Shown: one piece after another, positions 33,286-64,000 of the stretch
How the letters are laid out: each line of letters starts with the position of its first letter
Numbering within the stretch: position 1 is the first letter of the stretch
NCBI GenBank assembly: GCA_021927905.1
Contig: BLLK01000072.1
Location: forward strand, 1-64,000
Source of the DNA: Chaetoceros tenuissimus
Taxonomy: Eukaryota; Bacillariophyta; Thalassiosirophyceae; Chaetocerotales; Chaetocerotaceae
DNA length: 64,000 nt
Direction: 5' to 3'
Notes under the pieces: generated by a model
Told to the model about the DNA's origin: nothing
The model's database searches: none
Seen by the model: the letters and a program-made list of their open reading frames with translations, nothing else
Made by a program: the position numbers and the translations under genes

Positions 33286-33289
33286 CTTA

Positions 33290-34695
33290 TTTGCTTTTTT
33301 TGTTTGTTTTTGTCTTGTCCTATTAAACTTATCTTTTTTCCACCTTGAACTATACCTTGGTCGAACTTTTCTTTGCCCATTTGCCGAAGTCTTTTGCCTT
33401 CATTACTACATGCTTCCAAAATTCTACTACTTCTTCCTACACCATCGTGTCCTCTGTCTTCGTTTTCATGTCCATTAAACAGGCCAACATTTTCGAATGG
33501 ATTTTCACGCATAAAGTCCACAGTTTCTCTTTCGTAGACTTGAAATTCTTCAATCTTGCTTACAGCAGTATCACGGTTTTGAACAAGATAATTGTGTAAC
33601 CTCATAGCTGCATCTATCACCTTTAAATTTTTATCAAGATCAAATTGCAAAGGCTTCCAGAAGATGCCCCAACGCATGTCTATTTCTCCAAACGCACATT
33701 CTACCCAGATGCGACAAGTTGAATGGTGGTAGTTGAAACTATCTTTTGCTGAATTTGGCAATGCATTATCAAATGGAGTCAAAAGAAATGACCTGATGGC
33801 ATATGCAGAGTCACCAACAATGTAAAACCCCATCGCAAGAAGATCTCGAAATCTTAAAAGAAGTTTGTCATGCAAGGTCGTCTTTTTAAAAGCTGTTGAG
33901 TCATGCTCCGATCCTTTGCATTTGATGCTTCTCCAAATGACAAGCTTTTCTTTGTTCACAATAGCTTGTACATTATTTGCATAAAAACCTTTCCTGCTGA
34001 AGTAAGAGGCAATATGTCCTGCACCATCGTTTGATCTTGGCCGTCTAATTTTTACTAACCAACCATTTAATGCCCCAATACAACCACTTATAATACCACC
34101 ATGACTTCCACATGATTGAAATTTGCGACTCTCAGATCGTAGCTTTGCTACATCCTCAAAATAAGCCAATCCTGGATATGATATCACTCTATTGTTGCAT
34201 ATCCAGTCTCTTATCGTTACGTGGAAGATTGTATAGGTGTACGTATAGCCACTACAGTAAAGTGCAGCTATGTCGAGATATGATCCGCCAGCTAGTAGCT
34301 GTAATGTAATAGCTAACTTTACTTCACCACAGATATAACCCCCAGTGGTGAAAGAATTTGCATAGAACCTTCTCTTTTTTTTTAGAATTGATTGGAATTG
34401 ATTCTTCATCATCAAAATAGTGCAGACTTCTGAGATACTCCTCACTTTTAAATTCTTCCTCGCCAACCGCATGTTTGATCTTTTTACAAAGCTCCTTAAA
34501 GCACCCTTTGGACATTCTGAATGTTCTTCTGAAATTTTTATCAGAAAGCGAATCTACAAATTCTTGCCACAAAAACCTCTTTCTTGGAATACATTCTTGT
34601 GCAGCTCTGCTTTTCTCTTCACAGATCAATGAATGGCGTATGCAAATCATACATAAATGCAATACGAATGTCCAAGATACATATAGATTCACCAA
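33290..34695 (-). pseudogene. Harbinger transposase (DDE_Tnp_4 type), inactivated
   Basis: The N-terminal part has NFRRTFRMSKGCFKELCKKI, the helical entry of PIF/Harbinger transposases. The catalytic part follows: GCIGALNGWLVKI, then SRKGFYANNVQAI, GDSAYAIRSFLLTPF, and VECAFGEIDMRWGIF with MRLHNYLV. In the family the first box usually reads GALDG, and here the aspartate codon is AAT (Asn). The second Asp (GDSAY) and the Glu (VECAFG) are present. The N-terminal part and the rest lie in different frames, with the shift near a poly-A/T run at about 34375, so it is a pseudogene twice over. The C-terminus runs into gypsy-derived DNA near 33.29 kb. The usual Myb-like partner gene was not found. Confidence 0.88.
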
Positions 34696-36261: not shown

Positions 36262-36546
36262 TTATAACGTTATAGTTGAACTCAAACTTTTACTATAACT
36301 TATTATCGTTACTCAGCTTTCGCTTCAAGAGATAGAGCACCTGCTTCTAACTCTTCCAACCGCAGAAATTTTTCTGCTGCCCCAAGACGCCGTTTTGCTC
36401 GTCCAAACAGACCAAGAAACCGTGCAACCCTACCACCCCTCCCTCAACTCCGTCCTGGTGAGCAACGCTACCTCGGAAAACCTAAGGAGGAACTTGTTGC
36501 CCTTGAAACCAACCCTATTTGTCTTCCACCTCTAAACCATGACGCT

Positions 36547-38118: not shown

Positions 38119-38972
38119 AAAGAGTCAACTCTACCTACAAATGCATCTCTTGTCAGGAGACTATTGGCTATGATGCCTTCAAGCTTATGTGCAGAATTTG
38201 CTATGACAAGTATCTGAGAACTATGGAAGAGCTTCAACATGTTCCTATTAAATTCAAAGATGGCATTCTTAAAATTGATCACCAAATTTTCCAGACACTT
38301 GTCCAAAGAGTAATCGAGGCTTTTGTGGGTCAACACTTTAGACTTTCTAACCATCCAGTAACCAAACATGCACTCAAGGAAGCAGTGATCAAGTGTAATA
38401 GAAAGCAGAGTGCCAACACCAATCAAAAAACCTACAAAAAGTACAAATTAAATGGTGCCGTTGTCGACCCAAATGACAGAGTATTTCAATATACCTTCTT
38501 TTTGCTAATTCTCTCTGAATGGAGAGCTGCCTGTATTAGCAGAAGTGTTGCTGTGGAAAAGTCCTTCGTGTTTTTTGAACTCTTAGAATTAGAAAAAGCA
38601 ACTATTATGTCAGTTATGCAAGCAGACATTGACAATGTAACCCAGCTTTGGAGCAAATTGAAGAAGGAATACGAAGGAAAAGTTAAGTATACTCAAGATG
38701 GCTCACCCCTAACTAACGAATTTAAATGCCTCGTCCATTATGACAGTGTGCAAGACACCTTTTTTTGTGAAGATTCAGTCCTGGGTATCGTCATCGAAAC
38801 CTTGACTGAATTTCTACTTCCAGCTCCAGACGGAAGTTTGAGGCATGAGGTCCAAGAGGATCATGAGCCAGCAGTACAGGAAATCCTCAATAAACTGTAC
38901 AACTTTGATCACATCAGAAACGAGAAGGAGAGAAGCATCGTCAATGAGGAGGATAAAGAATCCTTGACCTAA
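38085..38972 (+). CDS. Gypsy upstream protein 2, unknown, Cys-pair N-terminus
   Basis: The start has two CxxC pairs 12 residues apart (YKCISCQETIG ... MCRICYDKYL), a zinc-ribbon-like layout. A predicted helical domain follows (DHQIFQTLVQRVIEAFVGQH, FFLLILSEWRAACISRSVAVE), with an acidic end. I know no such protein in standard Ty3/gypsy elements. It lies between upstream protein 1 and Gag. Confidence 0.5.
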   Translation: MYAKFERPERVKRVNSTYKCISCQETIGYDAFKLMCRICYDKYLRTMEELQHVPIKFKDGILKIDHQIFQTLVQRVIEAFVGQHFRLSNHPVTKHALKEAVIKCNRKQSANTNQKTYKKYKLNGAVVDPNDRVFQYTFFLLILSEWRAACISRSVAVEKSFVFFELLELEKATIMSVMQADIDNVTQLWSKLKKEYEGKVKYTQDGSPLTNEFKCLVHYDSVQDTFFCEDSVLGIVIETLTEFLLPAPDGSLRHEVQEDHEPAVQEILNKLYNFDHIRNEKERSIVNEEDKESLT

Positions 38973-39052
38973 CACAAGTACATCTGTACTCCTTCCTTGA
39001 TAAAAAGACTCTTGACAGCATCTACCAAGTAGCAGAGTATGCTTCTGCTAGG

Positions 39053-40238
39053 ATGCGAAGGGAGGATAGTGAAAAAGAGGAGTCAGACATGGGAAACAGT
39101 AGCGACCAAGGATTAAAAGAAGAAGACATCGAAAAATTAGATGCTATTTTTTCTAACATGAAATTTGCCAAGTCATCATCAGAAACATCATCTGTGCCTT
39201 CAAGCCTTCCAGGATTGACTCGAAGAGGATATGCAAGCTCATCTTATTCGGGTGATAGCATACTTAATGACGTTGCTGATATTCTACTAGACGAGATATT
39301 GGATGATCCATCAGTCCAAGAAGTCCGAGAACAGGTTGCAAACAAACTCACTGAACTCGACGAATACCTATTTGAAAACCTTTTGATGGATGCAGGACGT
39401 ACCATTCCAAAATTTTTAACAGGTAGTGTTTGACTGTATGGATCACATTGAAAGAGTGTACAACAGACAACCGAAAGAAGTAGAGAACCATGTCTTTAGA
39501 GAAAAAATCAAATTGAAATCGTTCGAAGAAATAGCCGAAGCATTCAAGATTTCAGTTATGAGAGGCATTTTCACTATCATGGGACAAGCAGCAGCACCAT
39601 TTATAGCTGAAAATGCTGTATTTTATATTACAAAAAGAATCACAATACCAGGAGACTGGCCTCAGCAGGAGCTCATCAATTATCTAGAAGATTGCTATGA
39701 AATTCTCATTCTCCTTCCAGATAGTCATTTTACTGTCACAAATTACAATACTGAACAAAAAGATGCAATGAAGAATAACGTATTAATCTGTGCACAGCAA
39801 CGCAGACTGAAGACCCAACTACTTGCACAGCCAAACCTCCTTGAGAAAACCTATGAAGAAGTCAAGAAGGAAGTTATTAAGACTTGTGGCAACATTCAGT
39901 ATGTTCATCACACATCAGACATCAACCCAGGTAGATTCATCCGTCAACAAGGTTCTACACCATGTATTCACTGCAGAGGAATCAATCATAGATCTCACCA
40001 ATGTTATTTTGTTGTTGGATTTCCTGAACGTCATCATTCTAGACCACAATATTTTGCTCCGCCAGGAATGGACAACCAGATGAGAAGACAGCCAGTTCTA
40101 AACCAACAGCTTTTCCAACAGCAAGGAAATAACAATGCATGGAGACCTCAAGGAAATAACAATGCATGGAGACCTCAAGGAAATGTTCCTGCTCATAACA
40201 ACAACAATTACAACAGGACCAACACGAAACTGTTGTAA
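39053..40238 (+). other. Gypsy Gag region with CCHC zinc knuckle
   Basis: A Ser-rich acidic leader is followed by a capsid-like helical region (FEEIAEAFKISVMRGIFTIM, LEDCYEILILLPDSHFTVTN). A knuckle CIHCRGINHRSHQC (CX2CX4HX4C, about 39.96-40.0 kb) comes next, then a Gln/Asn-rich tail with the tandem repeat QGNNNAWRPQGNNNAWRP. Asn-rich low-complexity coding continues to about 40.42 kb. Confidence 0.8.
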
Positions 40239-40449
40239 TAGCAACTACAACAGAGTCAACAACAACTTTGGAAACAATAGAGGACAACGTAATTTCAACA
40301 ACAACAACTTCAACAACAATAGAAGAAGAAACATTTTCAACAACAACAATGGAAACCATCAAACTAACAATCGTCAGCCAGCAGAGGCTCACTTAAATGA
40401 AAACGAAGAATGGAGCGATTGAAAAGGGGGTAGATGCGAAGACCTTTTC

Positions 40450-43400
40450 TTGTTTAGCAAGCAGGAGACAAGAAAGAGAAAGATGAGAGAAAATCATTTG
40501 GGCGAAAAACCACTAGTTAAAAAGCCTAAAAATAAAACTCTATCAAACAACTCTTTCACAGTTTCTTCACATCCTACCACTATCACAATTTGCAACATTC
40601 AGAGAAAACAAGATGGAAAGTATATATCAACAAATACCTTCCTACAAGCGTTAATGGACACTGGCTGTAGTAATAGTCTAATCAAAGAAGAATGGAAAAG
40701 ATTCAGAACAATCAAAGAAGGAAAGAAAATGGAATTCATGACTGGCAACGGAGTAAAAACACTTAACAAACACCTAACACTTGAATTCACCTTATGTGAA
40801 TTCACCAACAAACGAAGAGTCAAATGGAAATTCGTAATAGACGATGGAAATCATTCCTACGATATCATCATAGGCAGAGATCTCTTATGCCAATTAGGAA
40901 TGAAGCTGGACTTTGATAACAAAAAGTTAATCTGGCAAGGAATGGAAATTCAAATGAGGTATCCTCACGAAACTCTATATCAGAAAACTGCATCACAGAA
41001 GAACTCAACCTTCCTAGCACACGAATACAACTTAGAGTCACAACATTCCCTTGCTGCAACAGATAGAATACAAGAAATACTCACAGTCAACAACACATCT
41101 CCAGTAGATTTTAGAAATTGGATTTCAGAAATTGAAAACATCAAGCAAAAAGAAAGAGATCTTCTACTCACAACACTATTAGAGAACAGTGAATTATTCC
41201 AAGGCGACTTGGGCACATGGAACTGTTCTCCAGTCGAAATAGAACTCAAAGAAGGAGCAACGCCATATGCCACAAGACCATATCCAGTACCAAAAATTCA
41301 TGAAAAACAACTCAAAGCAGAAATTCAACGATTTATAGATCTAGGAATTCTAAAGAGGACGCTCAATTCCGAGTGGGCGTCCCCAGCCTTTTTAATTCCA
41401 AAAAAAGATGGAAAAGTATGCTTCATATGCGATTTCCGACAATTGAATGCAAGAATAAAGAAGAAACCATATCCAATTCCACCGATCAGTGAACTCCTCG
41501 GAAAAATGGAACAATTCACATACGTCACAGCGATAGACGTTAGTCTTGGATATCACCACATTAGACTAACAGAGAAGGCTCAAGAACTCTGCACCATAAC
41601 TACACCATACGGACAATACTCATATACAAGACTACCGATGGGTTTAGCAACAGCTCCAAGTATTTTCCAAGACAAAATTCACGAACTTCTTGAAGATCTA
41701 ACCTTTACAAGAGCCTACATAGATGATATCCTCATAATTAGCTTCAAAGATGCGACAGATCACATACAAAAATTGCATGTGGTTCTCACCAGACTTCGCA
41801 TAGCAGGAATAAAGATCAAGAAAGAAAAAGTGCAATTATTGAAATCAGAGATGATATATCTTGGGTACAAGATCACAACAAAAGGAATTGCCCCAGATCC
41901 AACAAAGGTAAAAGCTATCTTAAACCTCGCAAGACCAAAGACAACTCGACAAGTAAAAAGATTCATTGGAATGATTCAATATTATCGTGACATATGGCCT
42001 AGACGCAGTCACATTCTTACACCTATAGTGAATCTCACAAAAGGATACAAAAAAGAAGAAAAACACAAACCTATCAAATGGACTACAGATTGCGAGAAAG
42101 CCTTCAACAAAATCAAGGCAGTAAATGCAAGAGAAACATTATTAGCCTTTCCGGACTTCTCAAAGAAGTTTACAATACATACTGATGCAAGTGACCTTCA
42201 ATTGGGAGCAGTAATATCACAAGAGAATTGACCACTTGCCTTTTACAGCAGGAAACTGACTCAAGCTCAAAAGAACTATACAGTAACAGAAAAAGAACTT
42301 CTGAGCATAGTTGAAACACTCAAAGAATTTCGAACAATTTTATTGGGTTTTGAAATTGAAATTTACACAGATCACGTCAATTTAACTTACAATTCGACAC
42401 TTAGTGACTCCCAACGAGTCATGCGATGGAGAATGATAATAGAAGAATTCGCCCCTGAAATTAAATACATTAAAGGAGAAGCAAACACAGTGGCAGACAG
42501 TCTCAGCAGATTACCACTCATAGAAGATAATGGGTTAGAGGACGACCAAGTCGAAAACAAACTATACGAACTCTTCATGAATGAAGATGTACAGGAAGAC
42601 CAAGAAAGAGGTTTTCCATTGGAATATAAACAAATTAGGAAAAAACAAGAACAAGCACTTCGTGACGACGAAGTACTTAAGCAGGAAATGCAAACAGATG
42701 CTAAGAAGCAATCAGAGAAAAAGCTATTCGGAGTAAAAATGTTCGATGACGAAAGACTGATCACCTATCGAAATCGTATATACATTCCAAAATCGTTACA
42801 AAATGAAACAATACATTGGTATCATTGGGCCCTACAACACCCAGGAGAAAACAAACTCATGCGTACAATTCAAATACATTCTGCATGGCCAAATATGGTC
42901 AAACAAATACAAGAATACACGCGTGTATGCAAACAATGCCAATTGTTCAAGAAACGATCTCTTAAATACAGAAAATTACCACCGAAACAGCTACCACTCC
43001 TTCGACCATGGGAAGAAGTGGCTTTGATCTGATTGGTCCTTACAAAGTAAAAACAAAGCAAAGACAACTTGATGGAAGCGTAAAACCAGTAGAATTAGTT
43101 CTATGCGCCATGACAATGATTGACATAGCAACAGGTTGGTTTGAAATTAAAGAAGTACCAACCGCGCCATATAGAAAAGAAACAACAACTAGAAGAAAAC
43201 GAAAAGAAAACAATGAAACTGCAGATAGAATACAAATCACAGAAACAACAATTATGGACAAATCAAGTGCACGAATGTCTCAATTATTTGACCAAGTATG
43301 GCTTAGCCGTTATCCAAGACCATCAAAAGTAATTTTCGACAATCAAAAGTAATTTTCGACAATGGAGTAGAATTCAAGAAAGACTTCCTACAACTACTAC

Positions 43401-44809: not shown

Positions 44810-44949
44810 CCCTACCTCTGTATGGCCCGAGCTAGCAATTATCCGTGAAGACTTGGATCTAAGTGAAGACAACGCATGTGAGTGTGACGAAAATGACTTG
44901 ATACTTAAGTAATTTGCGGACTCTCATTGTGATACAATGTGAAAACTAA
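44810..44949 (-). repeat. Split direct repeat A1
   Basis: 140 bp starting CCCTACCTCTGTATGGCCCG. It matches A2 except for a short extra segment (ACTTGGATCTAAGTGAAG) and single differences. Confidence 0.9.
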
Positions 44950-44972
44950 TCCCAGGGTGGAAGTGGGAGGGT

Positions 44973-45158
44973 CCTTTTTATCTATGTTAATACCTAGTCA
45001 TAAGCCTTTACCTAGACCTATCTAGAAAATGAACTGATGTATTTGAACCGTTGTGTATTGCTTTCCTCTTCGTTCAAATACATCTTGTCTTGCTGCTACT
45101 ACGCAGCATTGTGCCTAGCTATTCTATTCCCGTCCCCCGTCATTGTGCCACTCGACGA
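44973..45158 (-). repeat. Split direct repeat B1
   Basis: 186 bp starting CCTTTTTATCTATG and ending CTCGACGA; nearly identical to B2. Confidence 0.92.
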
Positions 45159-45280
45159 CCCTACCTCTGTATGGCCCGAGCTAGCAATTATCAGTGAAGA
45201 CAACGCATGTGAGTGTGCCGAAAATGACTTGATACTTAAGTAATTTGCGGACCCTCATTGTGATACAATGTGAAAACTAA
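45159..45280 (-). repeat. Split direct repeat A2
   Basis: 122 bp, directly joined to B1; partner of A1. Confidence 0.9.
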
Positions 45281-45495
45281 CCCATGTGCGATCCCGTATG
45301 GGGAGCATGGCCCCAAGATAAGTGGAATAGTAGTGCTTGTAACTATCAAGAGACGCTGTTGCAGGTGGTTGCGTTACGCCAGCTGCTTCTTGCGGCCTGA
45401 TAATTGCATGCGAGGGTAAGATAGAAGGGTAAAGATAAATAAAATTAAAAGATTACTGGTGCAGATTTGGAAGAAAAGTAGTTTGAAAGGAGTAT

Positions 45496-46641
45496 TTACT
45501 TTTCGATTGCAGCGATGTTGATGAATGGTAGCTTCTCTCCCATTTTCCGAGAGACTCCAGCTGACAAATGTGCAATTTGATTGTGGATATACATGGTGAA
45601 TGTAAGAGATGTCCAGCGACCCATTTTCATGATGGTTGTATCGTCATATCCATGTAGTTTCAATGCCATTGCACCTCCTGCACGGAGAGAGTGTGTGCCG
45701 ACTAGATCTGGAGTGATGCCTTTTTCTGTGAGGTTTAGCTTCACTACCATTGCCTTCACCATATCTCGTACATGTTGAGCTTGTACTGAGGAGAATGTGT
45801 CGGATGCTTCATCATAGAAGTCGCAGAGCAAGGAGTCGGTGTCTCCTCCATTTGCCAGAATATGATGCACTCGTCGTGCTAATGCTTTCGTTGGAGATGT
45901 TTTTGCACCTGTGTCTTCATGGTGGATAGTAGTTCCCATGTGTCCGTTCTTTTGATTTGTTATTTTCATTGTTACAGAATGTGCTTGTAGAAGTTTCTCC
46001 AAAGATGAATGACGGGAGATATCTTTTCCATGGATATCTTTAAAGCCAATGTTGCCAACAGTAAACTGTACAGTTCTTGTAGCTCGTACCCATTTGCCAT
46101 TTCTTTTCACTCTTGTTGGTTTGGTGTATTCACCGACTCGTAACAAGTAGTAGAACGCGATTACCATGAGGTCTGCTGTGGCTTGTGTACGTGGACAGTT
46201 TGTAGTTGTAGACATGTCATGAGCTTCATGGACTACTTCTACTGGCACTGCTAGTTTTGCTACTGGTGGTGGATCCTCTCTTCGCATACCTTCCACTAAT
46301 CGTCCGATTGGTGTTGTGTATTGCCCTTCAGTTGTGAGGATGGGACTGCGTTCTCCAGCCAATTCGATGGTCTTGGTGATGGCTGAGATTGCTTTAGTAA
46401 CCGTTTGAACGGTGACTTGTTCTCCCAATCCATAGCTTCCTGTCCTGACCCTAGCAGCAAAGGCCGCGACTGCAATTGTTGCTTGGAGTTGAGACTCTGC
46501 TCTGAGGAAAGGATCAATGCATATGCTGCAGCAATAGCTGCACCATGCTTTCCAGTATTTAGCCCGCTCTTTTTCGTTCTTCGCAGTGACCCCATTTCCA
46601 ATGTAGCTCCACGAAGACAAGATATCACGAGCGACACCCAC
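45496..46641 (-). CDS. Ngaro-like ORF3, tyrosine recombinase, 381 residues
   Basis: The C-terminal catalytic boxes are readable: MVIAFYYLLRVGEYTKP (box I Arg), THSLRAGGAMALKLHG (box II H-x-x-R) and MGRWTSLTFTMYIHNQ (final Tyr). The enzyme integrates a circular DNA copy by strand exchange instead of using an integrase. It overlaps the RT-RNase H frame by about 345 bp and is the last gene before repeats A2-B1-A1. Confidence 0.9.
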   Translation of the reverse strand: MGVARDILSSWSYIGNGVTAKNEKERAKYWKAWCSYCCSICIDPFLRAESQLQATIAVAAFAARVRTGSYGLGEQVTVQTVTKAISAITKTIELAGERSPILTTEGQYTTPIGRLVEGMRREDPPPVAKLAVPVEVVHEAHDMSTTTNCPRTQATADLMVIAFYYLLRVGEYTKPTRVKRNGKWVRATRTVQFTVGNIGFKDIHGKDISRHSSLEKLLQAHSVTMKITNQKNGHMGTTIHHEDTGAKTSPTKALARRVHHILANGGDTDSLLCDFYDEASDTFSSVQAQHVRDMVKAMVVKLNLTEKGITPDLVGTHSLRAGGAMALKLHGYDDTTIMKMGRWTSLTFTMYIHNQIAHLSAGVSRKMGEKLPFINIAAIEK

Positions 46642-49025
46642 TCTTTTGGTATAGTGAGTTCGTGCCAGCAGCTCGTCTGTGGGAAGTGAGAATTGAAGTA
46701 GTTAGCTAGATTGTCATGAGCAGTAAAGAATTTACCATCTCTGAATGCCCTAGAAGCGATATCTGCCATTGTGTTGTCATCTCCTGCTACATTTGTGACC
46801 AATGCTGGACCTGCCTCTTTAGTGTTGATTCGCATATACAGAAGACGGAGTAGTTGCCCTGCTACTGCTGATGTTGAAGTACAGCCATGTTGTGCCCAAG
46901 ATACAGCACTTGTATTGTCACAAAACATGCCTAGTCGTATGTTGTACATGTTTGGTATTATAGCTTCTGCTGCAAACCACTCAAGGACAATGGCTGCCAG
47001 TTCCAAGTCATTGATAGTGACTTCATGTGTATCAAGTTTTTGTTTGATGTCTTCTGGCCATTCCACTTGCCAGACAATGAAAGGGAAATCTCTTGAACCA
47101 TATGCAAGAATGCCTCCAGCACCATGTCGACATGCATCCAGATATCCATTATAATCCGGTGTATCTGCGACCAATAAGGAAATATCGCTTGGTCTTTTCA
47201 ATATTGACGTGATGATAGATTTCCAATCTGATAGACATTGTTTCAGATCTTCGGTGATGTTGATGTATGCAGGGGAGCCCTCCATTGCTTTCCAAATTGG
47301 AGACATTAGTGAACGTCCTCCAACTATTCCAAACGAGGCATGCATCAATTTACCGGCCAACTTTTGCCAACTGTTGAGATCTGTCTTCTTCTTTTTGGCC
47401 CTTTTGTACTTTTGAACTAGATTTCGTAGAGTTTGAAGTTTTTCAGGTGGTAAAGAGATGGTGTATTTCCCACCATGGATGATCCAGCCTAGGATTTCCT
47501 TCTCCTCTTGCCAAATCCCTTCTCCTGCCAATAGTTTCTTTTGTGCAATGGGGTCTTCACCGTTGTGACCTGTGATAGCAGTAGGCGGGAAAACCGAATG
47601 TATCCCATGGAGCATTGCTCGGCTAAGATGCAAGATGTTTGCTCGACTTGTATCATTTGTGATGGCAATGTAATCGTCCACAAAAACCTCAACCAGATTT
47701 ATTGTGTCTTTTGCTGCAACTCCGTAGACAAATTTCTCTTCAAACATGAGTGACTCCATTTGGTGTGCAGGAAGACTCTCCTCCGTTAGTAGTTGTTCAA
47801 TGACGTCTCTTCCTGTCTCAGAGGCAGAGCAAAAGAATGGGGGACTTTCAGCCCAGCCCATTTGCAAGCTGTTTGGTACTAAAATCTCTACCTCATCAAG
47901 ATCTACCTCTCCATTTTCACTTGGGAGCACGTAGCAGAAATTCCAGGCCTCCTCATCACTCACAGCTAAGCGCCAAAAACCATCCTTGATGTCCAATTTT
48001 GCAAAGTGGAATCGTTGAGCAGGGTCCTTTTTACGTGCCTGTGCCATTGTATTGATTATACGCTTGATAGCTTGGCCAAGCTGTGACATGCTTTGTTGCT
48101 GTGCAGTTTTATTTGTGCTGGAATTTACACTTGGCATGCGCTCACCATCTACTAGTAGCTGGAATGATAGATCCAAGATGAATCGAAATAAGCGACTCTT
48201 ATGTGGAATGGCAGCAATTGGTGATATTTTCAGTTTCTTAGGTAACTGATGTCTGATCTTTCCAAATTTGATGATGCGTGCATAGCCACCATGTACTTTA
48301 TCGAATGCCTCTTTGCGCAATTCTCTAATTGCCGCTAGTTTCTTTGCAGATGGATGTGCTCCTCGTCTGATAGCTTCAATAATGTGTTGTTCCGTCCAAT
48401 CCTCTCCACAGTTAACCGGGCAACCTTTGATGGCAAATTCTTCAAGCATTGTTGCAGCTGGATGCTTCAATGCTTCACCTCGAGGTCGCATTAGTCCAAT
48501 ATACTTACCTATTTCTTCTTGTAACTCGGTAATCTCATCCGGAAAAGATTCATCAGATTGGAATGCTTCTTCAATTGCTCTGTCAATGCTTTGAGGAGTT
48601 TGTGCTCTTGGTTGTATGATTGGTGAAGGAGATAACTTTGCTTTTTTGCAAGCAGGTTCATCCTCCACATCCTCTACAATGACATGCACCTCTTTGGATT
48701 TGCCTTTAGTTGGATAGCCTTGATCGGCCAATACCATGTTAGCTTTTCCATATTCCTGTGGTGGTGTCCATGATGCATAGCTAGAAAAACAAATTTGAAG
48801 AACGAATCGAGTTAGTTTAGAGTATTTAGAGTCTAATAGACTGACACGTTTATAGTCCGGAAGACTACGATGTTTATAGTCTAAAAGACTGACACGTTTA
48901 TAGTCCAGAAGACTGCGAAGTTTATAGTCCAGGAGACTGACTCGTTTATAGTCCGGAAGACTGTGATGTTTAGAGTCAGATCGACTGGCACGTTTATAGT
49001 CCGGAAGACTTTGCATGCATAGCAA
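46296..49025 (-). CDS. Ngaro-like ORF2, reverse transcriptase-RNase H, 909 residues
   Basis: The first 65 residues are a run of 8-residue repeats (LPDYKRVS / LLDYKHRS). The reverse transcriptase core then has PHKSRLFRFILDLSFQL, AKLDIKDGFWRLAVSDEEA, NSLQMGWAESPPFFCSA and the catalytic box EVFVDDYIAIT. RNase H-like boxes follow (GYLDACRHGAGGILAYGS, GMFCDNTSAVSWAQHG, VTNVAGDDNTMADIASRAF). This RT type is shared by DIRS/Ngaro elements. Its 3' end overlaps the recombinase frame, as in other elements of the group. Confidence 0.9.
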   Translation of the reverse strand: MLCMQSLPDYKRASRSDSKHHSLPDYKRVSLLDYKLRSLLDYKRVSLLDYKHRSLPDYKRVSLLDSKYSKLTRFVLQICFSSYASWTPPQEYGKANMVLADQGYPTKGKSKEVHVIVEDVEDEPACKKAKLSPSPIIQPRAQTPQSIDRAIEEAFQSDESFPDEITELQEEIGKYIGLMRPRGEALKHPAATMLEEFAIKGCPVNCGEDWTEQHIIEAIRRGAHPSAKKLAAIRELRKEAFDKVHGGYARIIKFGKIRHQLPKKLKISPIAAIPHKSRLFRFILDLSFQLLVDGERMPSVNSSTNKTAQQQSMSQLGQAIKRIINTMAQARKKDPAQRFHFAKLDIKDGFWRLAVSDEEAWNFCYVLPSENGEVDLDEVEILVPNSLQMGWAESPPFFCSASETGRDVIEQLLTEESLPAHQMESLMFEEKFVYGVAAKDTINLVEVFVDDYIAITNDTSRANILHLSRAMLHGIHSVFPPTAITGHNGEDPIAQKKLLAGEGIWQEEKEILGWIIHGGKYTISLPPEKLQTLRNLVQKYKRAKKKKTDLNSWQKLAGKLMHASFGIVGGRSLMSPIWKAMEGSPAYINITEDLKQCLSDWKSIITSILKRPSDISLLVADTPDYNGYLDACRHGAGGILAYGSRDFPFIVWQVEWPEDIKQKLDTHEVTINDLELAAIVLEWFAAEAIIPNMYNIRLGMFCDNTSAVSWAQHGCTSTSAVAGQLLRLLYMRINTKEAGPALVTNVAGDDNTMADIASRAFRDGKFFTAHDNLANYFNSHFPQTSCWHELTIPKEWVSLVISCLRGATLEMGSLRRTKKSGLNTGKHGAAIAAAYALILSSEQSLNSKQQLQSRPLLLGSGQEAMDWENKSPFKRLLKQSQPSPRPSNWLENAVPSSQLKGNTQHQSDD
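48815..49012 (-). repeat. 24-bp minisatellite in the RT gene's 5' end
   Basis: About eight tandem units of TTTATAGTCC[GA]GAAGACT[GA]-type sequence with alternating variants. In frame they encode eight copies of an 8-residue word, keeping the reading frame because the unit is a multiple of three. Confidence 0.9.
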
Positions 49026-49032
49026 TATTGAC

Positions 49033-51075
49033 TTACCCCATCACTTGAACTGGATCTGGCATAAATTGTTGTAATTTGGCAAGGCTGTTCTTTGCTTGAG
49101 CTTCACTCAGCTCCTTGTGTGGTAAATTGCATGCTCTTCTAGTACATTTGCCATATAGTGCAAAGTTTGCACAACCTCTGAACTCCAGTAGCTCCGCAAT
49201 GTTCACCTCACATGCTTTGCAGATAGCACTGATAGCAATGTGCTCTTTGTTTTGCGCTCTTTTCACCTGCTCCACTGCTTTATCAAAGTCCTTCAAACAC
49301 TTTGGTCTATTTGCAATGCGCAATTTCTTATCAGGTGAAGTTGGAGGAGAGCCAGTTGCCTTTGGTGGGAGCTTTCTGATGCTGTCATCTTCTTTCTTTT
49401 CTTCAGCCTCTCGTCTGATCAGCTTACTTGGCATCTGTGCATACGTGACACGGCCAATTTTCCAAGTTAGCTGATTTAGCATATAATCAAAAGCCTTGAC
49501 GCTATCGCCCTTTCCTTTAGAAAATGATCTGCCCTCCAAGAATGTAAGCCATAGGATAATTGCCTTTTGATTGTGGTCAAACATTTTTCTGGCACTTGGT
49601 TCAAACCCCACTATAGCCTCTATCAAGCTTTGCACCCGCAAGAAGAGTGGACATTTGTCCCCAAAGTAAGCCCAGAGTGTATTTGCAAACATACGAAGTG
49701 CCTCTACAAAATCATGGAATGCCTCAGGGATGACCGGTACCCCTTTCTTGATTGATTTCTCAATGTCTGCACTTGTTTTTGCTTCAGTTCTCTCCAATAT
49801 CTCACGTTGCTCCTCTACTATTTCTAGCTCCTCAGTGGTCAGGCGGATGCAGAGAAACAGACTGAGATGCTTGAATGCTGCATTCGTTGACGGATCCGAA
49901 ACACCGTCCTGAGCAAAGAAATCTCTCTTGCGTAGTACCTCAAAGAGTTCTGGATTATTTGGCGTTGGAGAATCCTCGTAATTCTTTTTTGCATCGAGTT
50001 TTTCTTTGATGAGTTGCAATTGCAAGGATTTATTCTTTTCCTTTTGTACTTCCCTGAAGATGGCTGGTAGTTCCTTTATGTTGTCTTCCAATGTAGACTT
50101 GTGTGGCTTTCCACACATAGTTAGAATTCGCTTTACCTCAGTCTCTGACCAACCCTTTTCCTCCTTTGTGGTTGTAGCTGCTGGTGCAGGGGCTTGGAGC
50201 TGCTGCACCAATCCTTGTTGCTGAAGTAGCAATTGTTGCAAGAGTACTGTATCAATTCCTGCTGCAGGAGCAGCTGGAGCTGGGGGACTAGGAATCATTT
50301 GGGCTACCTTTGCTTTTGCCCATGCTGCAGCTTCCGTATTATAGCCCAGCATAAAGTCTGAATGCTCTAGCCTTGCACTCTTCTTTACATTATGCTTCAC
50401 AAAAGCCGTCATTAGGAATTTCCGAAGGTGCGCAATCATGTTTGCAGGATTTCCTACCGAAGCTTCCACATCCTCAAGTCTCTCCAGTATCTCCGCAGCC
50501 TCCACCGGTTTGGCAATTGCATCTAACGCGATGTAAGCCGGGATTGGAGCAAGACGCATGACTTCCCATTCTACATTTTCTGCATCGGAATGTGCCACAG
50601 ATTGCTTTTCAAGTTGAGTCTTCGTTGCCGCTTTGAATAGTGCTGTGTTTCTTCCCATGGTCTTCGTCAGTATTACATAGTCCATTGGAAGCACCAATGC
50701 TTGAGGTGAGGCCCCACTGTCCTCCACCTCATTCATGAGCCACAGCAATTTTTCATCCAGTTCCGAGTCTCCTCCAAGCTGTGCCATTCCTAGCTCTGGT
50801 CCATACACCATTCTGACTTTGGTTGAATCTGGGAACATCACAAGAGCTGTCAATGGTTTGGCCCCATTGCCTTGAGCATTGAGTGGGAACAATGTATCGC
50901 TGGAGCTATCTTGCAAAAGATTGAAGAGATGGCCTGCACTGGTGATCTGGGCCTCCTTCGAGTGCTGGGATAGGAAATTGGCGATTTTTCCGGTTGGTGC
51001 GGGGAGTGTTCCAGAGAAGAAGCGATTGCTGTATGCTGGATCATCCCCCTCCTGTGTGAGTTTGTCTAGTGACAT
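49033..51075 (-). CDS. Ngaro-like ORF1, capsid-like protein, 680 residues
   Basis: First gene of the element, starting 26 bp inside repeat B2. An N-terminal globular region is followed by a Pro/Ala/Gln-rich linker (LLQQLLLQQQGLVQQLQAP) near residue 275. A helical domain with EFFEVLRKRDFF-like text comes next. A CCCH zinc-finger-like box near the end (CANFALYGKCTRRACNLPH, residues about 650) could bind RNA. No enzyme motif, which fits a Gag-like role. Its stop lies next to the start of the RT gene. Confidence 0.75.
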   Translation of the reverse strand: MSLDKLTQEGDDPAYSNRFFSGTLPAPTGKIANFLSQHSKEAQITSAGHLFNLLQDSSSDTLFPLNAQGNGAKPLTALVMFPDSTKVRMVYGPELGMAQLGGDSELDEKLLWLMNEVEDSGASPQALVLPMDYVILTKTMGRNTALFKAATKTQLEKQSVAHSDAENVEWEVMRLAPIPAYIALDAIAKPVEAAEILERLEDVEASVGNPANMIAHLRKFLMTAFVKHNVKKSARLEHSDFMLGYNTEAAAWAKAKVAQMIPSPPAPAAPAAGIDTVLLQQLLLQQQGLVQQLQAPAPAATTTKEEKGWSETEVKRILTMCGKPHKSTLEDNIKELPAIFREVQKEKNKSLQLQLIKEKLDAKKNYEDSPTPNNPELFEVLRKRDFFAQDGVSDPSTNAAFKHLSLFLCIRLTTEELEIVEEQREILERTEAKTSADIEKSIKKGVPVIPEAFHDFVEALRMFANTLWAYFGDKCPLFLRVQSLIEAIVGFEPSARKMFDHNQKAIILWLTFLEGRSFSKGKGDSVKAFDYMLNQLTWKIGRVTYAQMPSKLIRREAEEKKEDDSIRKLPPKATGSPPTSPDKKLRIANRPKCLKDFDKAVEQVKRAQNKEHIAISAICKACEVNIAELLEFRGCANFALYGKCTRRACNLPHKELSEAQAKNSLAKLQQFMPDPVQVMG

Positions 51076-51100
51076 AGTGATATATGTAGGTATAGTTTTT

Positions 51101-51286
51101 CCTTTTTATCTATGTTAATACCTAGTCATAAGACTTTACCTAGACCTATCTAGAAAATGAACTGATGTATTTGAACCGTTGTGTATTGCTTTCCTCTTCG
51201 TTCAAATACATCTTGTCTTGCTGCTACTACGCAGCATTGTGCCTAGCTATTCTATTCCCGTCCCCCGTCATTGTGCCACTCGACGA
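51101..51286 (-). repeat. Split direct repeat B2 (other terminus)
   Basis: 186 bp partner of B1; only about one mismatch was seen (CATAAGACTTT against CATAAGCCTTT). It lies in front of the capsid-like gene on the coding strand and is thus the likely promoter end. Confidence 0.92.
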
Positions 51287-51388
51287 TTAGCCAGCCTCCC
51301 GAACTCAGGAATTCGGAACTGGTTAAAATCATATGGTCTGGTATGCAGGTTTGTAGAGCCATCTCTTATCACCGCACACTTCTCTTAG
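51287..51388 (+). pseudogene. Host glycosyltransferase-like gene, last part (disrupted)
   Basis: Immediately right of the Ngaro-like element the same phase continues with LASLPNSGIRNWLKSYG and ends at the stop 51386-51388. The exact continuation of phase across 44809/51287, with no target duplication, supports one former exon split by the element. Confidence 0.5.
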
Positions 51389-51905
51389 ATATCCGCCAAC
51401 AATCCCATTTTCCTGAAACACCTTTACCTCTACCATGCTGATCATCAGCAGGTATACCTCTCCACTCCACTCTTTCGCGGGCCGGGTGGCAGTCCTTTCC
51501 CTTGATCCTAGATCCGGATTAATTGCAATAACTGTATAACGCTTATTTATTTATTTATCTCTCGTGTCGCTCAGTTACGATACTTCCTCGTTTATTTCTT
51601 ATATCCATATCACGTAAGGACACAACAAAGGAAATATACCCGCTGAATGATCACTCATAGACTGAGGAGCATATAGGATTTTCGATGGAATATATGAAGG
51701 AGAGAATCAAAGCTTGGAAGGATAGGGATAGAGGGTAGATGGAAAATATTCAGAGAATGTGCAGCCTTCTCAGGATAGATTAGATATTTGCTAGCATGCA
51801 CAGCTTTTAGTTGCACATGGGGAATAGCTGTTGATGAGATCAGAAAAGAGTGCATGAGAAAGTGGAGGGATAGACAAGAAAGTGGAATAGACTTGGGATC
51901 GTTTA
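51389..51905. other. No gene recognised
   Basis: Unique-looking DNA between the broken glycosyltransferase-like gene and the tandem repeat. It has T-rich and TTTATTTATTTAT-like simple sequence at about 51545. No coding signature. Confidence 0.45.
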
Positions 51906-53513: not shown

Positions 53514-56108
53514 ATGACTGCCCGGAAAAAAATTCGCAATCGTAATTTTTATATAGTTTTTTTCCTAATAGGATACAATGTCTGTAGCATTTTTAATTTA
53601 TTGGAAAACTTTCAAAATTATGATCTCGTACAGTTACCAGCACTGGAAACCGAAATTTCGAAAGCAAGTGCAACTAATGCAGTTGTTCAAAATCGAATCC
53701 TACGAAGTAATACAAGCATAATTTTACTCACCAACTTGATTCCCATGCAGTAAGTAATACAAACATGTAGAGTTTTGTTCTTTTATCAAACGGTTGTTCT
53801 AAACCTTTTCTAAAAAGTCCTGATATTTCACAGACAAAACAAGTGTTAGATTCAGCATTTACTTACCTCGAGGGTTTACCACTTGACACACCTGTTTTCA
53901 TTTCTCTTGACTTTTTAGTTGAGTGCGATTCAAAGTATGCTATAAAGCATAATTATGTTTGTAACGCGGAAGATACTAGAAAGAAATTGCAGGAATACAT
54001 TAACAATCTCCGCACCTACTATCTACCCATGAGAAATGTTCAGATCTTGTCTAATGTTCAGTGGGGGCACATCCGATACAACCTTGAAAGGTCGCTCATG
54101 ATGGTAAAAACAAAATATGTGTATGTCCTTCAACATGATGAGCCATTCATCAGACCAATCAATCATACAGCCGTTATCAAAACTTTTGACGAATACTATC
54201 CAGAACATATATGGAAATTAGAGTTCCCTTTGAAAGCAAGAAATGTTTGGGCTGATAAAAAAGACCTGAAGGGTAAAAAAAAATGTTTCAGCATGGAAAC
54301 ACCTTTCTCCCAAGGTATTAATGGTATCAACATTACTAAGACTGATGGTTGGTCAGATCAGAACCACTTTACTACCAAGGAGTATTACTTGAGAGTGATT
54401 GAGGACATTGGGTCAGTGCCACGTTCTCCAGAATTTCCGCTTAATGTCCAGGCAACAAAAAATTGCAGAGAAGTTGCAGCTCATCAATATGGTGGTCCTG
54501 ACGATGAACCATACCTGGCACATTTGAATGGTCGCTTTACAAAACCTTCGTCATATGCTCCTCCCATAGAACAAGAAAAAATGAAAAATAAAAAATCAAA
54601 TGGTGAGAAATAGTTTCAGAATGACTGCATTATTTATGAACTCAAGTATTATTAAAATATTAAAAGACTGACAATGTTATGTATTTCAAGAAGAAGACGA
54701 AAACCGATTTTCTTGTTTTCAGAACAAGCTTGCACCAATAGATGATAATATTACGAAAGCTGCACGCAAATTAAGACAAAGTTACTTTGAACTTGAACAA
54801 GAATTCAAGCAATGGATTCCAAGGCACTGGGACAGCAGTGTGCCAACTCCGTTTTCCATCAAAATCATCAATGATAGATATTATGTACTGGCTTCCATAA
54901 TTACCATTCCATCGCGAAGTCAAGATTCAAAAAAACACACAAATCCTGCAGCATATACACTGCCAAAAGAATTAGCTTGCAACCAAATGAAAGCCGAACA
55001 AGTAGCTGGAAAATCAAAGGTAACAAAAAACGGAATAAAAGATTACCTTCTTGTCCGATGCCCTGCCTCGTTAAAAGCATCAAAAGAAGCACTAGAAACT
55101 TTTTCAATTAGTATAAAAAAAGATGAAGGATTGAATGTGCCTACTACAATAAAGTACGACGTAAAAAAACTTGTAGAAGTCGAACAAGCAGATATAAAAT
55201 TGTCCTCCTTGCTCCAAAGCAAAAAAGATATCAAAGTAGGTTTATCAGCAACTTTTGATGGTGGACGTGATAAGCTTTTAGAGTGGGTGACTTACCATCT
55301 ATTGATTGGTTTTGATCATATTTGGCTTTATGTCAATGAACCATGGAACAATGGGATAAACTTACCACTCGAAATCGCGGGTGTTACCTTTATCCCTTAT
55401 GATAACAAAATTCAGAATCATTGGAATGATATGAAAACAATGGGATTTCTTCGGACTATGACTATGGACACATGGAGAGCCAACTCCCAAAACGATGCTT
55501 TATGGAGAGCCAAGAGAATGAATATGGATTGGATGGTCTTCATTGACCTTGATGAATTAGTTGTTTTTGAAAGTCACAAAGGTGAAATACCAAATGTCAA
55601 AGATTACCTGAACCATTTTAAAAGAACTTACAAAGAGAAATATTCAGGTTTGTATTTGAAGAGTGTTCCGCATGGTCAAAACATAGAATTTCCTTATCAA
55701 GGAAATATGATTTTGAATTATACATGGAGGTAAGGACAAATATATTTCATGATCGTTAATTAGATGTAGATTTTTCAGATTCCATTTCAATGTTATTACA
55801 GACCAAAGGGTGACATAGAAGAGTATAGTATTCACAGAGGTAAAATAATTGTTGATGTAGACAAAGTTGACGCCGTGGCAATTCATGAAATTCTGAGTGG
55901 GAAGCGAAGATTTGGTGATAAGTCTCTTCTTATACCAAGTTGCAAAGATATTCGGATTAACCACTACAAGAATCCTGAACTCGGAGCATTTTCCGTTTAT
56001 AGGCGCAAGAAATACTTTTCAACTAGTAAAGATCTGGAGGAGAGTACAGTGATTCGAGATGAGATGATAAACATTGTTTTGAACCAAATGAATTGTAAGT
56101 TTATATAG
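53514..56108 (+). CDS. Two-domain glycosyltransferase (GT-A-like + GT92), four exons, 788 residues
   Basis: Exons 53514-53749, 53818-54602, 54691-55729 and 55802-56108. The three introns (68, 88, 72 bp) are all GT-AG and phase-compatible. The start gives a short basic head and a signal-anchor helix (FYIVFFLIGYNVCSIF), so a type II Golgi protein is likely. Domain 1 (about 70-335) runs from ILLTNLIPMHPDIS through YVYVLQHDEPFIRP, a DxD-like acidic box. Domain 2 (about 460-785) has the GT92/DUF23 marks: ATFDGGRDKLLEWVTYH, FDHIWLYVNEPW, DWMVFIDLDELVVF, and in exon 4 INHYKNPELGAF. GT92 enzymes add sugars to glycoprotein or glycolipid glycans. The link between domains depends on the 88 bp intron. 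Without it exon 2 ends at a stop (54611-54613) and there would be two genes, but the second lacks an obvious ATG. Confidence 0.72.
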
Positions 56109-56112
56109 GTTT

Positions 56113-56361
56113 TTGAGCCTATCTAAAATTCGAATTCAATCTAAACTTCTAGAAAATAAAATTGTAAATGATCAGAAATTTTTAGACTTAAGTGTAAAAT
56201 TGTCCATTTTGCACACACAGTTCAACAGGGAAAAGAAAGAGATGCAAAGGAGGTACAAGTGCAAACCACGACTCAGTAAGAATATCTTTGGAAACGCTCT
56301 GCTAACGTCAAGATGTCAGCATTTGAAAGTTAAAAAAAATGACGCACAATTCATACTCTGA
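56113..56361 (+). other. Short open stretch after the glycosyltransferase gene
   Basis: An 82-codon frame without ATG (basic, KKEMQRRYKCKPRLSK) directly follows the stop of the GT92 domain. A GTAAGT word at 56095 could be a donor for a further exon, but no acceptor gives a convincing join. It may be 3' untranslated sequence or a decayed last exon. Confidence 0.25.
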
Positions 56362-56658
56362 GATTCAAGAGTTATGATTGGAAGTTCCAGACTTGAAATG
56401 AGTGACGTACATCAAAAGGAATGATTGACATATAAGAGAATGAATATGAAACAAATGACGTGCCACAAGCAGAGCAATTGAAATTAGAATGTGTCAAAAA
56501 GAGGTGTCAGATGAGAAAGCCTTTACTTTACTTCAGCAGTGTGCTCATAGAAAGTCGAAATTCAGTTGTGTGGAAGAATAGCTATCTTGTACTGGAACTG
56601 GAAAGAAAATTTTTCACTTTCTCCAACCTAATCTAATTTCTAATTCATTCGCTACACC

Positions 56659-58800
56659 ATGTCTTTGTTCGCTGATTTCATTCCTACCGGCCCAGGTAAG
56701 CAACCTGCTAAAGTGTGTTGGGGCGGAAGGGATGATGATGATGATGATAATAATGTCAGTCCGCTTGCTGATTCGTGGACAGAGGCAGGGACTGCAAACT
56801 ATGCCTCTCCGGTCAGATACAGACGTTGTGTAGCGCTGGTCAATGATCTTGGAGCCTTGTGCTGTGGGAGAATTGGCAACAATGGGAATGTCTTCTGTGG
56901 AGCGGTCGGCTCGAAGGGATGCCCAACCAGCCATGAGAACAAGATGTCAGTCCTGGAGGCCCGCAAAGCTACAGGTGCTGCTGCCTTGTACTACATGTCT
57001 AGATCTTCTGCTAAGATCAAGCTTTCTGTTGATCCGATGCTGGATGCTGCTAACTTGGATACCATGGAGATTGAAGGACTTCTTCAGGCCAACTTCAAGG
57101 ATCAGGGAGATTGGATGCATGAAGTGGAGGCTAGAACTCAAGCTCTACTGACTGGCGTCTCTCTTGCTATTGCTAGATCTACCGTCAAGAAACCTGCCGT
57201 GTTCAACAAGATGGACAATGACGAGGATATGGAGGACGTTACTCATGGACTGACTGACATGTTCAATCAGGCCGCTCTTGATTCACCTGAGAGAGCGAGT
57301 GACAAGAAGCCAGCTGCTATTGAACCAAAGGAAGAAGGATGGATGACGTTAGTGGACAAGCAGATTGAAAAGTGGATGAGTTCTGCACATCAAAAGCTCA
57401 AGGAAGATGTCAGAGATCTTACTACCAAGTATCAGATGCTTTGTACTCAGGTGGGAAGTCCAAGTGCTCACCTCGCAAGAGCAGGGCAATCTATTTGGGA
57501 AGCAATCAAAGATACAGGTGCTCCGGACCTCATGAAGGCAGTACAAGATCCTTATCAGCTTAAGGCTCTGCAAGAGGCTGTATTTCAGAATCAAGACTTC
57601 AAGAAGTATCTCAAATCTACTAAGGATACTGTCCAGAGCATCACCGACAGAATCAGTAACTTGGAACTTGCTAATGCGAACCAGTCTACCGCTCCTGCTA
57701 TTGCTACTTCTCTCTTTGACAGTTTTCATGTTGGAGTCTTGGCACCATCACCAGCTGCAGCTCCAGCAGTGTTAGCACAGAAGGTAGCAGATCTTGAACG
57801 AGCTAAGAATGGAAATTCTTCTAGAGGAGAGATCACTGTGGTATTCAAGGATCAGGTATTCACTTCACCAAGAGATGTGCGTTCGGTTTTCAGAATGAGT
57901 CCTACATCTACTTCTCTGGTACGTCTGTCGATGGTCTACGATGCTTACATCCTCTTCGACCTTGTAGCCGACAGAGTATTTGGCTATCCAGACGAGAGGA
58001 AGTTCTCTCCAGATAAAGCTCACAGGCTTAACAGGAGCGTCAAGGACTTGTTGCATATCCAGTCATCTACCTTGAGTGGGCTACCTAACTTCTTCGATGG
58101 ATCAAAGAGCTCAAAGATTTTCATGGATGGCAGTATTAAAGGATCAAAGGCGAGCGTGTTCTCTAACATCAAGTCCCATGATATTTGGGGACCTTTTGGG
58201 ACTCCAAACAATTGTGTCAGGGTGGCTGCAGAAAGGGCGTTGGATTCCATCAAGCTGGAATACTTGAACAATCCCAGGGAAGGTTTGGATGCTTCGGTCA
58301 CTGTACTATTGGATGCCATGCTGGTACGCTCTGTTGAATTCGTCAAGGCTGTGTTTCTCTTTCTCTCCAACGAGTATGAAACACTAAAGCTGTACTTCAG
58401 TGAGGGAGACAAGTGCTGGAATTTCCTATGTAATTGTGTAAAGCAAGTGTTCTCAAGTGAATTCCATGTTGCTAGAGCTGTATCCAGTTCCGCGGATCAT
58501 ATGAACTGCGACGGAACTAATGTGAATGTGATTTGGACAGCACTGCGTACTATTTCTATCCAAGAAGACTTTCTTCGCGTGGGCTTTGAGAATCATTCTG
58601 GTTTGTCTAGTGCATACTCCCGCTTTATGCTCACTCACATGCCAAATATAGCAGTGACCAAGTTGCAAACTGAGATGGAGTCTACAGTGAAGAAGGTAAA
58701 GGCAGCGGAGGAAAAGCTGACTAAGGTAGAGGGTTTGGCAAACTCGGCTATTTCCAAGGCTGCAGCAGCAGGCGGAGGAAAGAAGAAGAAGGAGATCTGA
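56659..58800 (+). CDS. DIRS-like ORF1, capsid-like protein, 713 residues
   Basis: The N-terminus has a (GAT)n-encoded Asp/Asn run (near residue 30) and a Cys/His group (CCGRIG ... VFCG ... GCPTSHENK) conserved with copy A. The middle has helical text (WMTLVDKQIEKWMSSAHQKL, KEDVRDLTTKYQMLC) suggesting coiled coil. A globular part with VFKDQVFTSPRDVRSVFRMS follows. The C-terminal coiled coil (ESTVKKVKAAEEKLTKVEGL) ends in a GGGKKKK tail. No enzyme motif; a Gag-like RNA-binding role is inferred from position. Only 18 bp separate it from the next gene. Confidence 0.7.
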   Translation: MSLFADFIPTGPGKQPAKVCWGGRDDDDDDNNVSPLADSWTEAGTANYASPVRYRRCVALVNDLGALCCGRIGNNGNVFCGAVGSKGCPTSHENKMSVLEARKATGAAALYYMSRSSAKIKLSVDPMLDAANLDTMEIEGLLQANFKDQGDWMHEVEARTQALLTGVSLAIARSTVKKPAVFNKMDNDEDMEDVTHGLTDMFNQAALDSPERASDKKPAAIEPKEEGWMTLVDKQIEKWMSSAHQKLKEDVRDLTTKYQMLCTQVGSPSAHLARAGQSIWEAIKDTGAPDLMKAVQDPYQLKALQEAVFQNQDFKKYLKSTKDTVQSITDRISNLELANANQSTAPAIATSLFDSFHVGVLAPSPAAAPAVLAQKVADLERAKNGNSSRGEITVVFKDQVFTSPRDVRSVFRMSPTSTSLVRLSMVYDAYILFDLVADRVFGYPDERKFSPDKAHRLNRSVKDLLHIQSSTLSGLPNFFDGSKSSKIFMDGSIKGSKASVFSNIKSHDIWGPFGTPNNCVRVAAERALDSIKLEYLNNPREGLDASVTVLLDAMLVRSVEFVKAVFLFLSNEYETLKLYFSEGDKCWNFLCNCVKQVFSSEFHVARAVSSSADHMNCDGTNVNVIWTALRTISIQEDFLRVGFENHSGLSSAYSRFMLTHMPNIAVTKLQTEMESTVKKVKAAEEKLTKVEGLANSAISKAAAAGGGKKKKEI

Positions 58801-58818
58801 AAGGTTGGGGTCAATGAA

Positions 58819-63877: not shown

Positions 63878-64000
63878 TAGGACCCAATCTGAGCACAGAC
63901 GAGGGATTCCTATTGTTGAGACCGACATTGAAGCAGAAAGCATTGTGAGGTAGGGAATGATGAGGGGGAGAGATCAAGGTCTTCCGGAAGACATTGATTT

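Follow-up and report, generated by a model that had tools for sequence, protein, structure and literature searches.

A Ngaro-like tyrosine-recombinase retrotransposon with a predicted gag/RT intron in the diatom Chaetoceros tenuissimus

What kind of mobile element occupies positions 44810–51286 of the Chaetoceros tenuissimus DNA analysed here (contig BLLK01000072.1, positions 1 to 64,000; this whole 64,000-nucleotide (nt) stretch is referred to as the window)? We find a 6,477-bp element, encoded on the minus strand, with the sense order A1-[gag, RT/RH, YR]-B1A2B2, where A and B are direct repeats, RT/RH stands for reverse transcriptase/RNase H and YR for tyrosine recombinase. Very probably, this is a Ngaro-type tyrosine-recombinase retrotransposon in a diatom, with a cycle that would run through unspliced and spliced RNA and a circle. 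The Ngaro-like structure and circle-integration logic proposed in an initial annotation of this DNA held up in comparison with the rest of the genome: all eight copies compared share their end points, target duplication is absent at three insertion sites, and the two A repeats of a copy agree at 11 of 11 diagnostic positions. The element is thus of a known kind and well preserved; its distinctive part is an unusual, conserved intron predicted between gag and RT.

Split repeats, shared ends and insertion sites

With sense positions counted as 51287 minus the window position, the coding-strand 5′ end is the 187-nt repeat A1 (51100–51286, minus strand; sense 1–187), named B2 in the initial annotation. 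Downstream of the coding frames, the inner repeat B1 (45159–45283, minus strand; sense 6004–6128; 125 nt) abuts A2 (44972–45158, minus strand; sense 6129–6315; 187 nt), which a 19-nt spacer (44953–44971, minus strand; between sense 6315 and 6335) separates from B2 (44810–44952, minus strand; sense 6335–6477; 143 nt), the 3′ end of the element. The order A1-B1-A2-ORFs-B2 (ORFs, open reading frames) had been given earlier because the repeats were named from the other strand. Both repeat pairs were recovered with their coordinates, but "complete" does not describe them: B1 lacks 18 nt present in the B1 of the other four full copies, and the B repeat is therefore incomplete in the window copy. While A1 and A2 are 99% identical (1 of 187 positions differing), B1 and B2 are distinguished by three substitutions, one of them near the border and common to copies L001–L004, and by the 18-nt deletion. 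The inner B1/A2 joint, CGACGA/CCCTACC (45158–45159, no strand), equals the joint expected from fusing the outer ends, as the initial annotation had seen. The four inverted pairs listed by a search without a shuffled control measure 25–30 nt, at 70–72% identity, and are not terminal to both ends.

A search of the genome (41,027,912 bases in 68 contigs) gave at least 33 matches, several of them within one locus; the DNA of eight copies (L001–L008) was compared in full and 18 further stretches were sorted by eye. Besides the window copy (L001), the eight comprise three copies at 99% identity (L002–L004), one at 83% (L005), one at 81% without A2B2 (L006) and two solo A2B2 units (L007, L008), that is, five full copies, one lacking A2B2 and two solo units. 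Start and stop points are identical in all of them, as anticipated for other copies in the genome, and none ends elsewhere, L002 differing at a single one of the first six bases of A1. The six copies that hold ORFs measure 6477, 6487, 6496, 6496, 6475 and 6090 nt. Among the further stretches, L020 and L021 were recognised by eye as older solo units, L018 as a truncated A+B piece, L014–L017, L019, L022–L024 and L026 as older one-ended fragments, and L012, L013 and L025 as pieces of related elements. Two families are more divergent: L009, which has its own complete split repeats of 216 and 153 nt, and L010/L011, in which, of the repeats, only the B pair was detected.

The repeats evolve in concert. 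L001–L004 differ from L005/L006 by 17–18%, and at all 11 A positions diagnostic of the subfamilies, A2 carries the state of its own copy's A1 in all five full copies; within copies, A1 and A2 differ at 0 or 1 of ~187 positions. This agreement is expected if both A repeats are rebuilt from one template in each round, and fits a model cited in PMC6681497, wherein A1/A2 and B1/B2 must be near-identical at insertion. Between subfamilies, B1 differs at 1–2 of 125 and A1 at 12–13 of 187 positions, far below synonymous change (dS 0.8–1.8 outside the RT/YR overlap); cis-constraint and exchange between the subfamilies may each account for this, and both readings stand. A conserved RNA fold in B is not claimed (RNAalifold on seven sequences: 33 pairs, only three of which still pair after two-sided changes, covariation term −0.38).

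That the window copy may be recent, as had been suggested, is supported by its divergence of 0.83–1.03% from its three siblings L002–L004 and by its A repeats, and less so by its B repeats with their substitutions and deletion. No other copy within the 99% group (L001–L004) is open in all three frames: in L002, gag is interrupted by a stop and RT by an 8-nt gap, and in L003 and L004 RT is interrupted by two stops each. Of the more distant copies, L005 carries an 8-nt RT gap, and in L006 a single stop lies shortly before the RT frame ends, where it overlaps YR. L003 and L004 sit at separate locations, differ at 10 of 6,496 bases and have an RT stop in common; a broken copy was therefore apparently moved by proteins from elsewhere, a pattern that fits mobilisation in trans.

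How does the element enter its targets? For each of the eight copies, the two flanks were joined and compared with the genome; relatives spanning the junction were found for three (L002, L004, L006), and none was among the genome matches listed for L003, L005, L007 and L008. The empty-site relative of L002 (C17:552815) is letter-perfect around the junction and reveals no duplication. Neither does that of L006 (C27:648137), compared with which the filled site is missing 6 bp at a distance of four bases from the junction, within a short CAG/CAA-type repeat, nor that of L004 (C34:2159130), which spans the site without a change in length and has diverged there. In seven of the eight copies, at most one base matches from one side of the insertion to the other, the exception being L008 with a three-base CTA/CTA match. 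The proposed absence of a target duplication is thereby confirmed at the sites that could be compared, and no core shared between the window family and its targets is visible at the eight insertions.

The flanks of the window copy, by contrast, do not match each other, and the claim that the insertion keeps the host coding phase had to be dropped. For the right flank (from 51287), the genome contains 16 more protein matches; in all six relatives compared (L052, L053, L063–L066), the sequence changes exactly at the element border to one unlike the window's left flank, reading TGAATG, AGAATG or AGAGTG. As the two flanks do not belong together, a host reading phase across the element is meaningless; moreover, copy lengths vary and are not all divisible by 3, so that divisibility by 3 is not a property of the element. 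The likely cause is that copies recombined or that a rearrangement took place nearby. We lean towards regarding the window copy as a chimaera, in which recombination between two copies, or a rearrangement ending exactly at the element end, joined unrelated flanks: the multicopy right flank and the abrupt change in all relatives compared speak for this, whereas the left flank has no other match in the genome search, leaving its original neighbour out of sight, and the element could instead have inserted where the two flank sequences already met. A chimaeric origin would concern the later history of this copy and is compatible with a Ngaro-type element. The adjoining 51287–51416 is part of a coding sequence present in multiple copies, and 1,893-amino-acid (aa) open frames contain two of its other matches (C27:2038104, C32:3235928).

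Coding frames and class of the element

Three open frames had been predicted and are present in the window copy, measuring 690 (gag), 914 (RT, predicted intron included) and 401 aa (YR) from stop to stop. From first ATG to stop, the gag-like ORF spans 49033–51075 (minus strand; sense ATG 212, stop at 2252); the RT/RNase H ORF, our exon 2, covers 46296–48780 (minus strand; sense from 2507, the frame ending before a stop at 4989), and the YR ORF 45496–46701 (minus strand; sense frame 4586–5788), which overlaps RT by ~400 nt. Between L001 and L006, nonsynonymous (dN) and synonymous (dS) divergence amount to 0.127 and 1.60 in gag, 0.040 and 1.40 in RT before the overlap, and 0.056 and 0.84 in YR after it. 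Judged by these rates, purifying selection acts on all three frames. In the overlap, dS falls to 0.15 in both frames, which argues that both are real. A second intron joining RT to YR (sense 4552–4610), with an in-frame fusion and a CTAAC branch in the window copy, was rejected because L005 and L006 have GC in place of its donor GT and the RT frame is constrained through the overlap; from sense 4560 to 4989, the window copy contains no slippery heptamer of the form X-XXY-YYZ in frame with RT.

Gag was assigned by position, the Pfam scan giving no Gag family match; a C-x8-C-x4-C-x3-H knuckle near its C-terminus was noticed by eye. YR matches PF00589 (Phage_integrase) with an E-value of 0.0014, and K246 (within KITNQKNG), H337-x-x-R340, W363 and Y371 are conserved throughout its six-row alignment, as is R188 wherever a row extends over it (four rows); we take these residues to be catalytic. 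YR alone gave no match in a PDB sequence search, a six-row YR profile retrieved XerD only (E 0.7 and 0.86), and of 235 pattern matches in IMG/VR none was confirmed as a relative. The RT protein contains LDIKDGFWR, LQMGW and FVDD, with LDIKDGF, LQMGW and VDD-type as the shared blocks; the roles of these motifs and the RNase H assignment of 46296–48780 are our presumption. A profile of HIV-1 RT matches weakly (E 0.025), and RVT_1 is found at E 0.034 in L010 and 0.0053 in L067, a sister family described below. Pfam and NCBIfam scans of the element proteins, whose sensitivity for distant domains is limited, yielded no methyltransferase, hydrolase, DDE integrase or transposase.

Several of these observations weigh against our reading. 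The YR match falls below the Pfam gathering score, and the window RT protein has no Pfam RT domain. Among the insertion sites, the 6-bp shortfall beside the L006 junction possibly records a small loss of sequence, the empty-site relative of L004 is only 74% identical, L008 shows its three-base match, and the window copy has mismatched flanks. Solo units and the copy lacking A2B2, finally, can equally be explained by ordinary homologous recombination.

Set against published descriptions, the element has the split direct repeats of Ngaro, A1-[ORFs]-B1A2B2 (PMC8547959; PMC9210276), in five full copies; Gag (by position), RT/RH and YR follow in this order on one strand; the recombinase carries R, H-x-x-R and Tyr; a methyltransferase match is missing within the stated sensitivity; and integration proceeds without target duplication, L008 noted. 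Ngaro ORFs are "usually not overlapping" in the wording of PMC3266345, which the RT/YR overlap contradicts; however, since ORFs also overlap in a Xenopus Ngaro, non-overlap is no strict criterion. A DIRS1-like element was rejected, given direct repeats only, no terminal inverted repeats and no methyltransferase match. Tested for PAT-like membership, the element has the split direct repeats, and a methyltransferase was not found. Our assignment to Ngaro draws on structure, and this is our reservation: the element could instead be PAT-like, VIPER-like or a separate lineage, with homoplasious split direct repeats. As far as PMC4157794 sets this out, such repeats are inferred to have arisen more than once and classing by structure alone calls for caution; the same source, however, places PAT in the methyltransferase-bearing DIRS group, and no such domain was matched here. 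We consider this alternative unlikely.

A predicted intron between gag and RT

The gag stop TAA sits inside a splice donor motif, GTAAGT, at sense 2251, and opens a predicted spliceosomal intron of 256 nt in phase 2 (48781–49036, minus strand; sense 2251–2506) that ends in TTTTTCTAG at 2506, with a branch-like CTAAC ~30 nt upstream of its end. Its removal would join ...PDPVQVMG to YASWTPPQEYGK in frame. A direct-repeat search placed a 24-bp minisatellite within it (48825–49010, minus strand), which is 48 nt, or two units, shorter in L006. The donor at the gag stop and the acceptor TAG are retained in all six copies holding the boundary, the gag stop also falls within GTAAGT in L009, L010 and L011, and in-frame Gag–RT joins, all in phase 2, exist in three families (L001, L009, L010), the acceptors having been picked by eye. 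The host genome is rich in light-harvesting proteins (63 matches), and the one compared with the PDB has its best matches in chains 6ly5_A and 6l4u_5, both of Chaetoceros gracilis. Four introns of host light-harvesting genes, likewise read by eye, have the donors GTAAGT, GTAAGT, GTGAGT and GTACGT and end in YAG; a fifth stretch had no readable donor.

The retained splice signals suggest two forms of RNA: an unspliced one that would encode Gag and double as the genome, and a spliced one that would encode Gag-RT. Probably, then, a lineage of YR retrotransposons uses a retained intron with the gag stop in its donor as a gag/pol switch, for which an in-frame stop has been swapped in the sister family L067. 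Under a switch of this type, the intron would persist across copies because only unspliced RNA is copied, and the in-frame stop of L067 would mean that the switch was exchanged within one kind of element. The gag-pol expression literature, as far as it was covered, includes a case of stop readthrough, Tca2. In a targeted, non-exhaustive literature search, with subscription journals mostly outside it, an intron of this kind did not turn up for any Ngaro or DIRS element.

Could the same element make Gag-RT by ribosomal frameshifting, or initiate RT separately, the "intron" being a mere spacer? The RT frame is open through the predicted intron in L001 and L006, overlapping the gag stop by a few bases, and these copies alone would therefore also allow a frameshift. 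Also unfavourable to splicing are that an upstream CCAG in L009 looks at least as good as the acceptor chosen, though out of frame, and that the intron is predicted from sequence. In L005, L009 and L010, however, the unspliced RT frame from gag to exon 2 is closed by 10, 1 and 3 stops (including the gag stop itself in L005 and L010), so that neither a frameshift at the end of gag nor readthrough of a single stop would reach RT. Moreover, donor, CTAAC and TAG were kept while gag diverged by 24% and RT by 17%. Separate initiation lacks a conserved Met, the first Met of exon 2 being Lys in L005 and L006, while the codons around it appear constrained: exon 2 begins with 17 codons whose first, second and third positions differ 3, 1 and 8 times (L005) and 3, 1 and 7 times (L006), favouring the third position, albeit in small numbers. 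The spacer, unlike coding sequence, has its differences peak at second positions of the RT frame (2, 17 and 8 for L006), a pattern that the 24-bp periodicity blurs. We thus regard frameshifting or separate initiation as quite improbable.

A sister family, the proposed cycle and known systems

A second Ngaro-like element, L067 (on C27), has the layout of the window element, with its own repeats 100% identical and an overlapping YR; its RT and YR are 29% and 27% identical to those of the window. Its gag and RT share one frame split by a single TGA, where the window element has the predicted intron instead. For the A2B2 unit of L067 there are 13 recurrences at ≥98%, complete or nearly complete in length, and the family is apparently young. 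Left ends were compared for 14 of the 15 units listed, leaving out one at 81% (C62:90020): the three bases preceding GGCAAATG are NNC in 14 of 14 and CAC in six of them, whereas the right ends read CAC in 13 of 13, as does the inner joint. CA in six of 14 left ends exceeds the expectation from base composition (P ~9e-5, sites taken as independent). We read this as a short core that circle and target would have in common, always resolved the same way round; equivalently, the family would insert after C, preferably CAC. This end pattern points to the crossover and may tell how the circle is inserted. In L009, TCG stands at the left end and TCA at the joint and right end.

In the YR of L067 (L067:4920-6086), Arg replaces the His of HxxR (RCLR), and apparently likewise (YRSLR) in another retroelement of the window, recognised by eye at 56644–63877. 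In the latter, a gag-like ORF and a large RT-like one share a frame that a single TGA (58798–58800) divides, followed by an overlapping ORF whose tail resembles that of a YR (YRSLRRGATARA...W...Y); the element has no Pfam RT or YR match, and no split repeats were found in 54500–64000. Pieces resembling it by eye (8027–9662 and 16649–18790) are interrupted by a Copia-type element with ORFs at 10385–16315 (minus strand), flanked on either side by one of two identical 203-nt repeats (9650–9852 and 16417–16619). Two Ty3-like elements, judged by eye from RT and RNase H motifs, lie at 30374–33399 and 36280–43032.

How might the window element propagate? Transcription would start from A1, on the minus strand of the window. 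The unspliced RNA would be translated to Gag and serve as genome, splicing would remove the intron with the gag stop to give a Gag-RT/RH fusion, and YR would be translated from its overlapping frame. Reverse transcription would use the B1A2 block to rebuild both ends, yielding a circle with the B/A joint, which YR would insert at that joint into arbitrary DNA without target duplication. Solo A2B2 units or A1-ORFs-B1 copies would arise when direct repeats subsequently recombine. The RNA forms, the circle and the enzymatic activities of this scheme are inferred. To our knowledge, circularisation, integration and Gag/polymerase balance of YR retrotransposons have mostly been deduced from anatomy. 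Here, a single genome offers near-identical copies, empty-site relatives, solo units, a divergent subfamily with constrained frames and a younger sister family, and the intron with the gag stop in its donor makes a concrete prediction on RNA.

A long terminal repeat (LTR) retrotransposon or a DNA transposon with unusual repeats can practically be dismissed, since, RT and RNase H motifs and solo units reminiscent of solo LTRs notwithstanding, the repeats are split and not terminal, the recombinase is of the tyrosine type, target duplication is lacking and no DDE integrase or transposase was matched.

Like diatoms, the brown alga Ectocarpus belongs to the stramenopiles. Its Ngaro group is described as diverse, with 15 families, and its description, as far as considered, mentions no gag-RT intron (PMC12477816). 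For C. tenuissimus itself, the genome paper, in the part that concerns repeats, labels such elements only 'Gypsy/DIRS1', at 1.11% (PMC8613185). DIRS1-like elements, as presented in PMC3266345, have a tyrosine recombinase, a circular junction logic and no target duplication in common with the diatom element; they differ by the inverted orientation of their repeats, which come with an internal complementary region, by a methyltransferase and by a 3-bp target identity, whereas the window family is without a shared core at its eight targets. Similar split direct repeats, with A of 236 and B of 152 nt compared to 187 and 143 nt here, and likewise overlapping ORFs are reported for the Ngaro-like elements of Xenopus, which have an additional SGNH hydrolase ORF where the diatom element has no hydrolase match (PMC9210276). 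Similar, too, are the Ngaro elements of Cafeteria burkhardae (PMC8547959), with the same layout, ~6 kb in length, the order gag-RT/RH-YR and scattered solo AB repeats; no intron appears in the section describing them, and a gag stop within a predicted splice donor and the ~400-nt RT/YR overlap set the diatom element apart.

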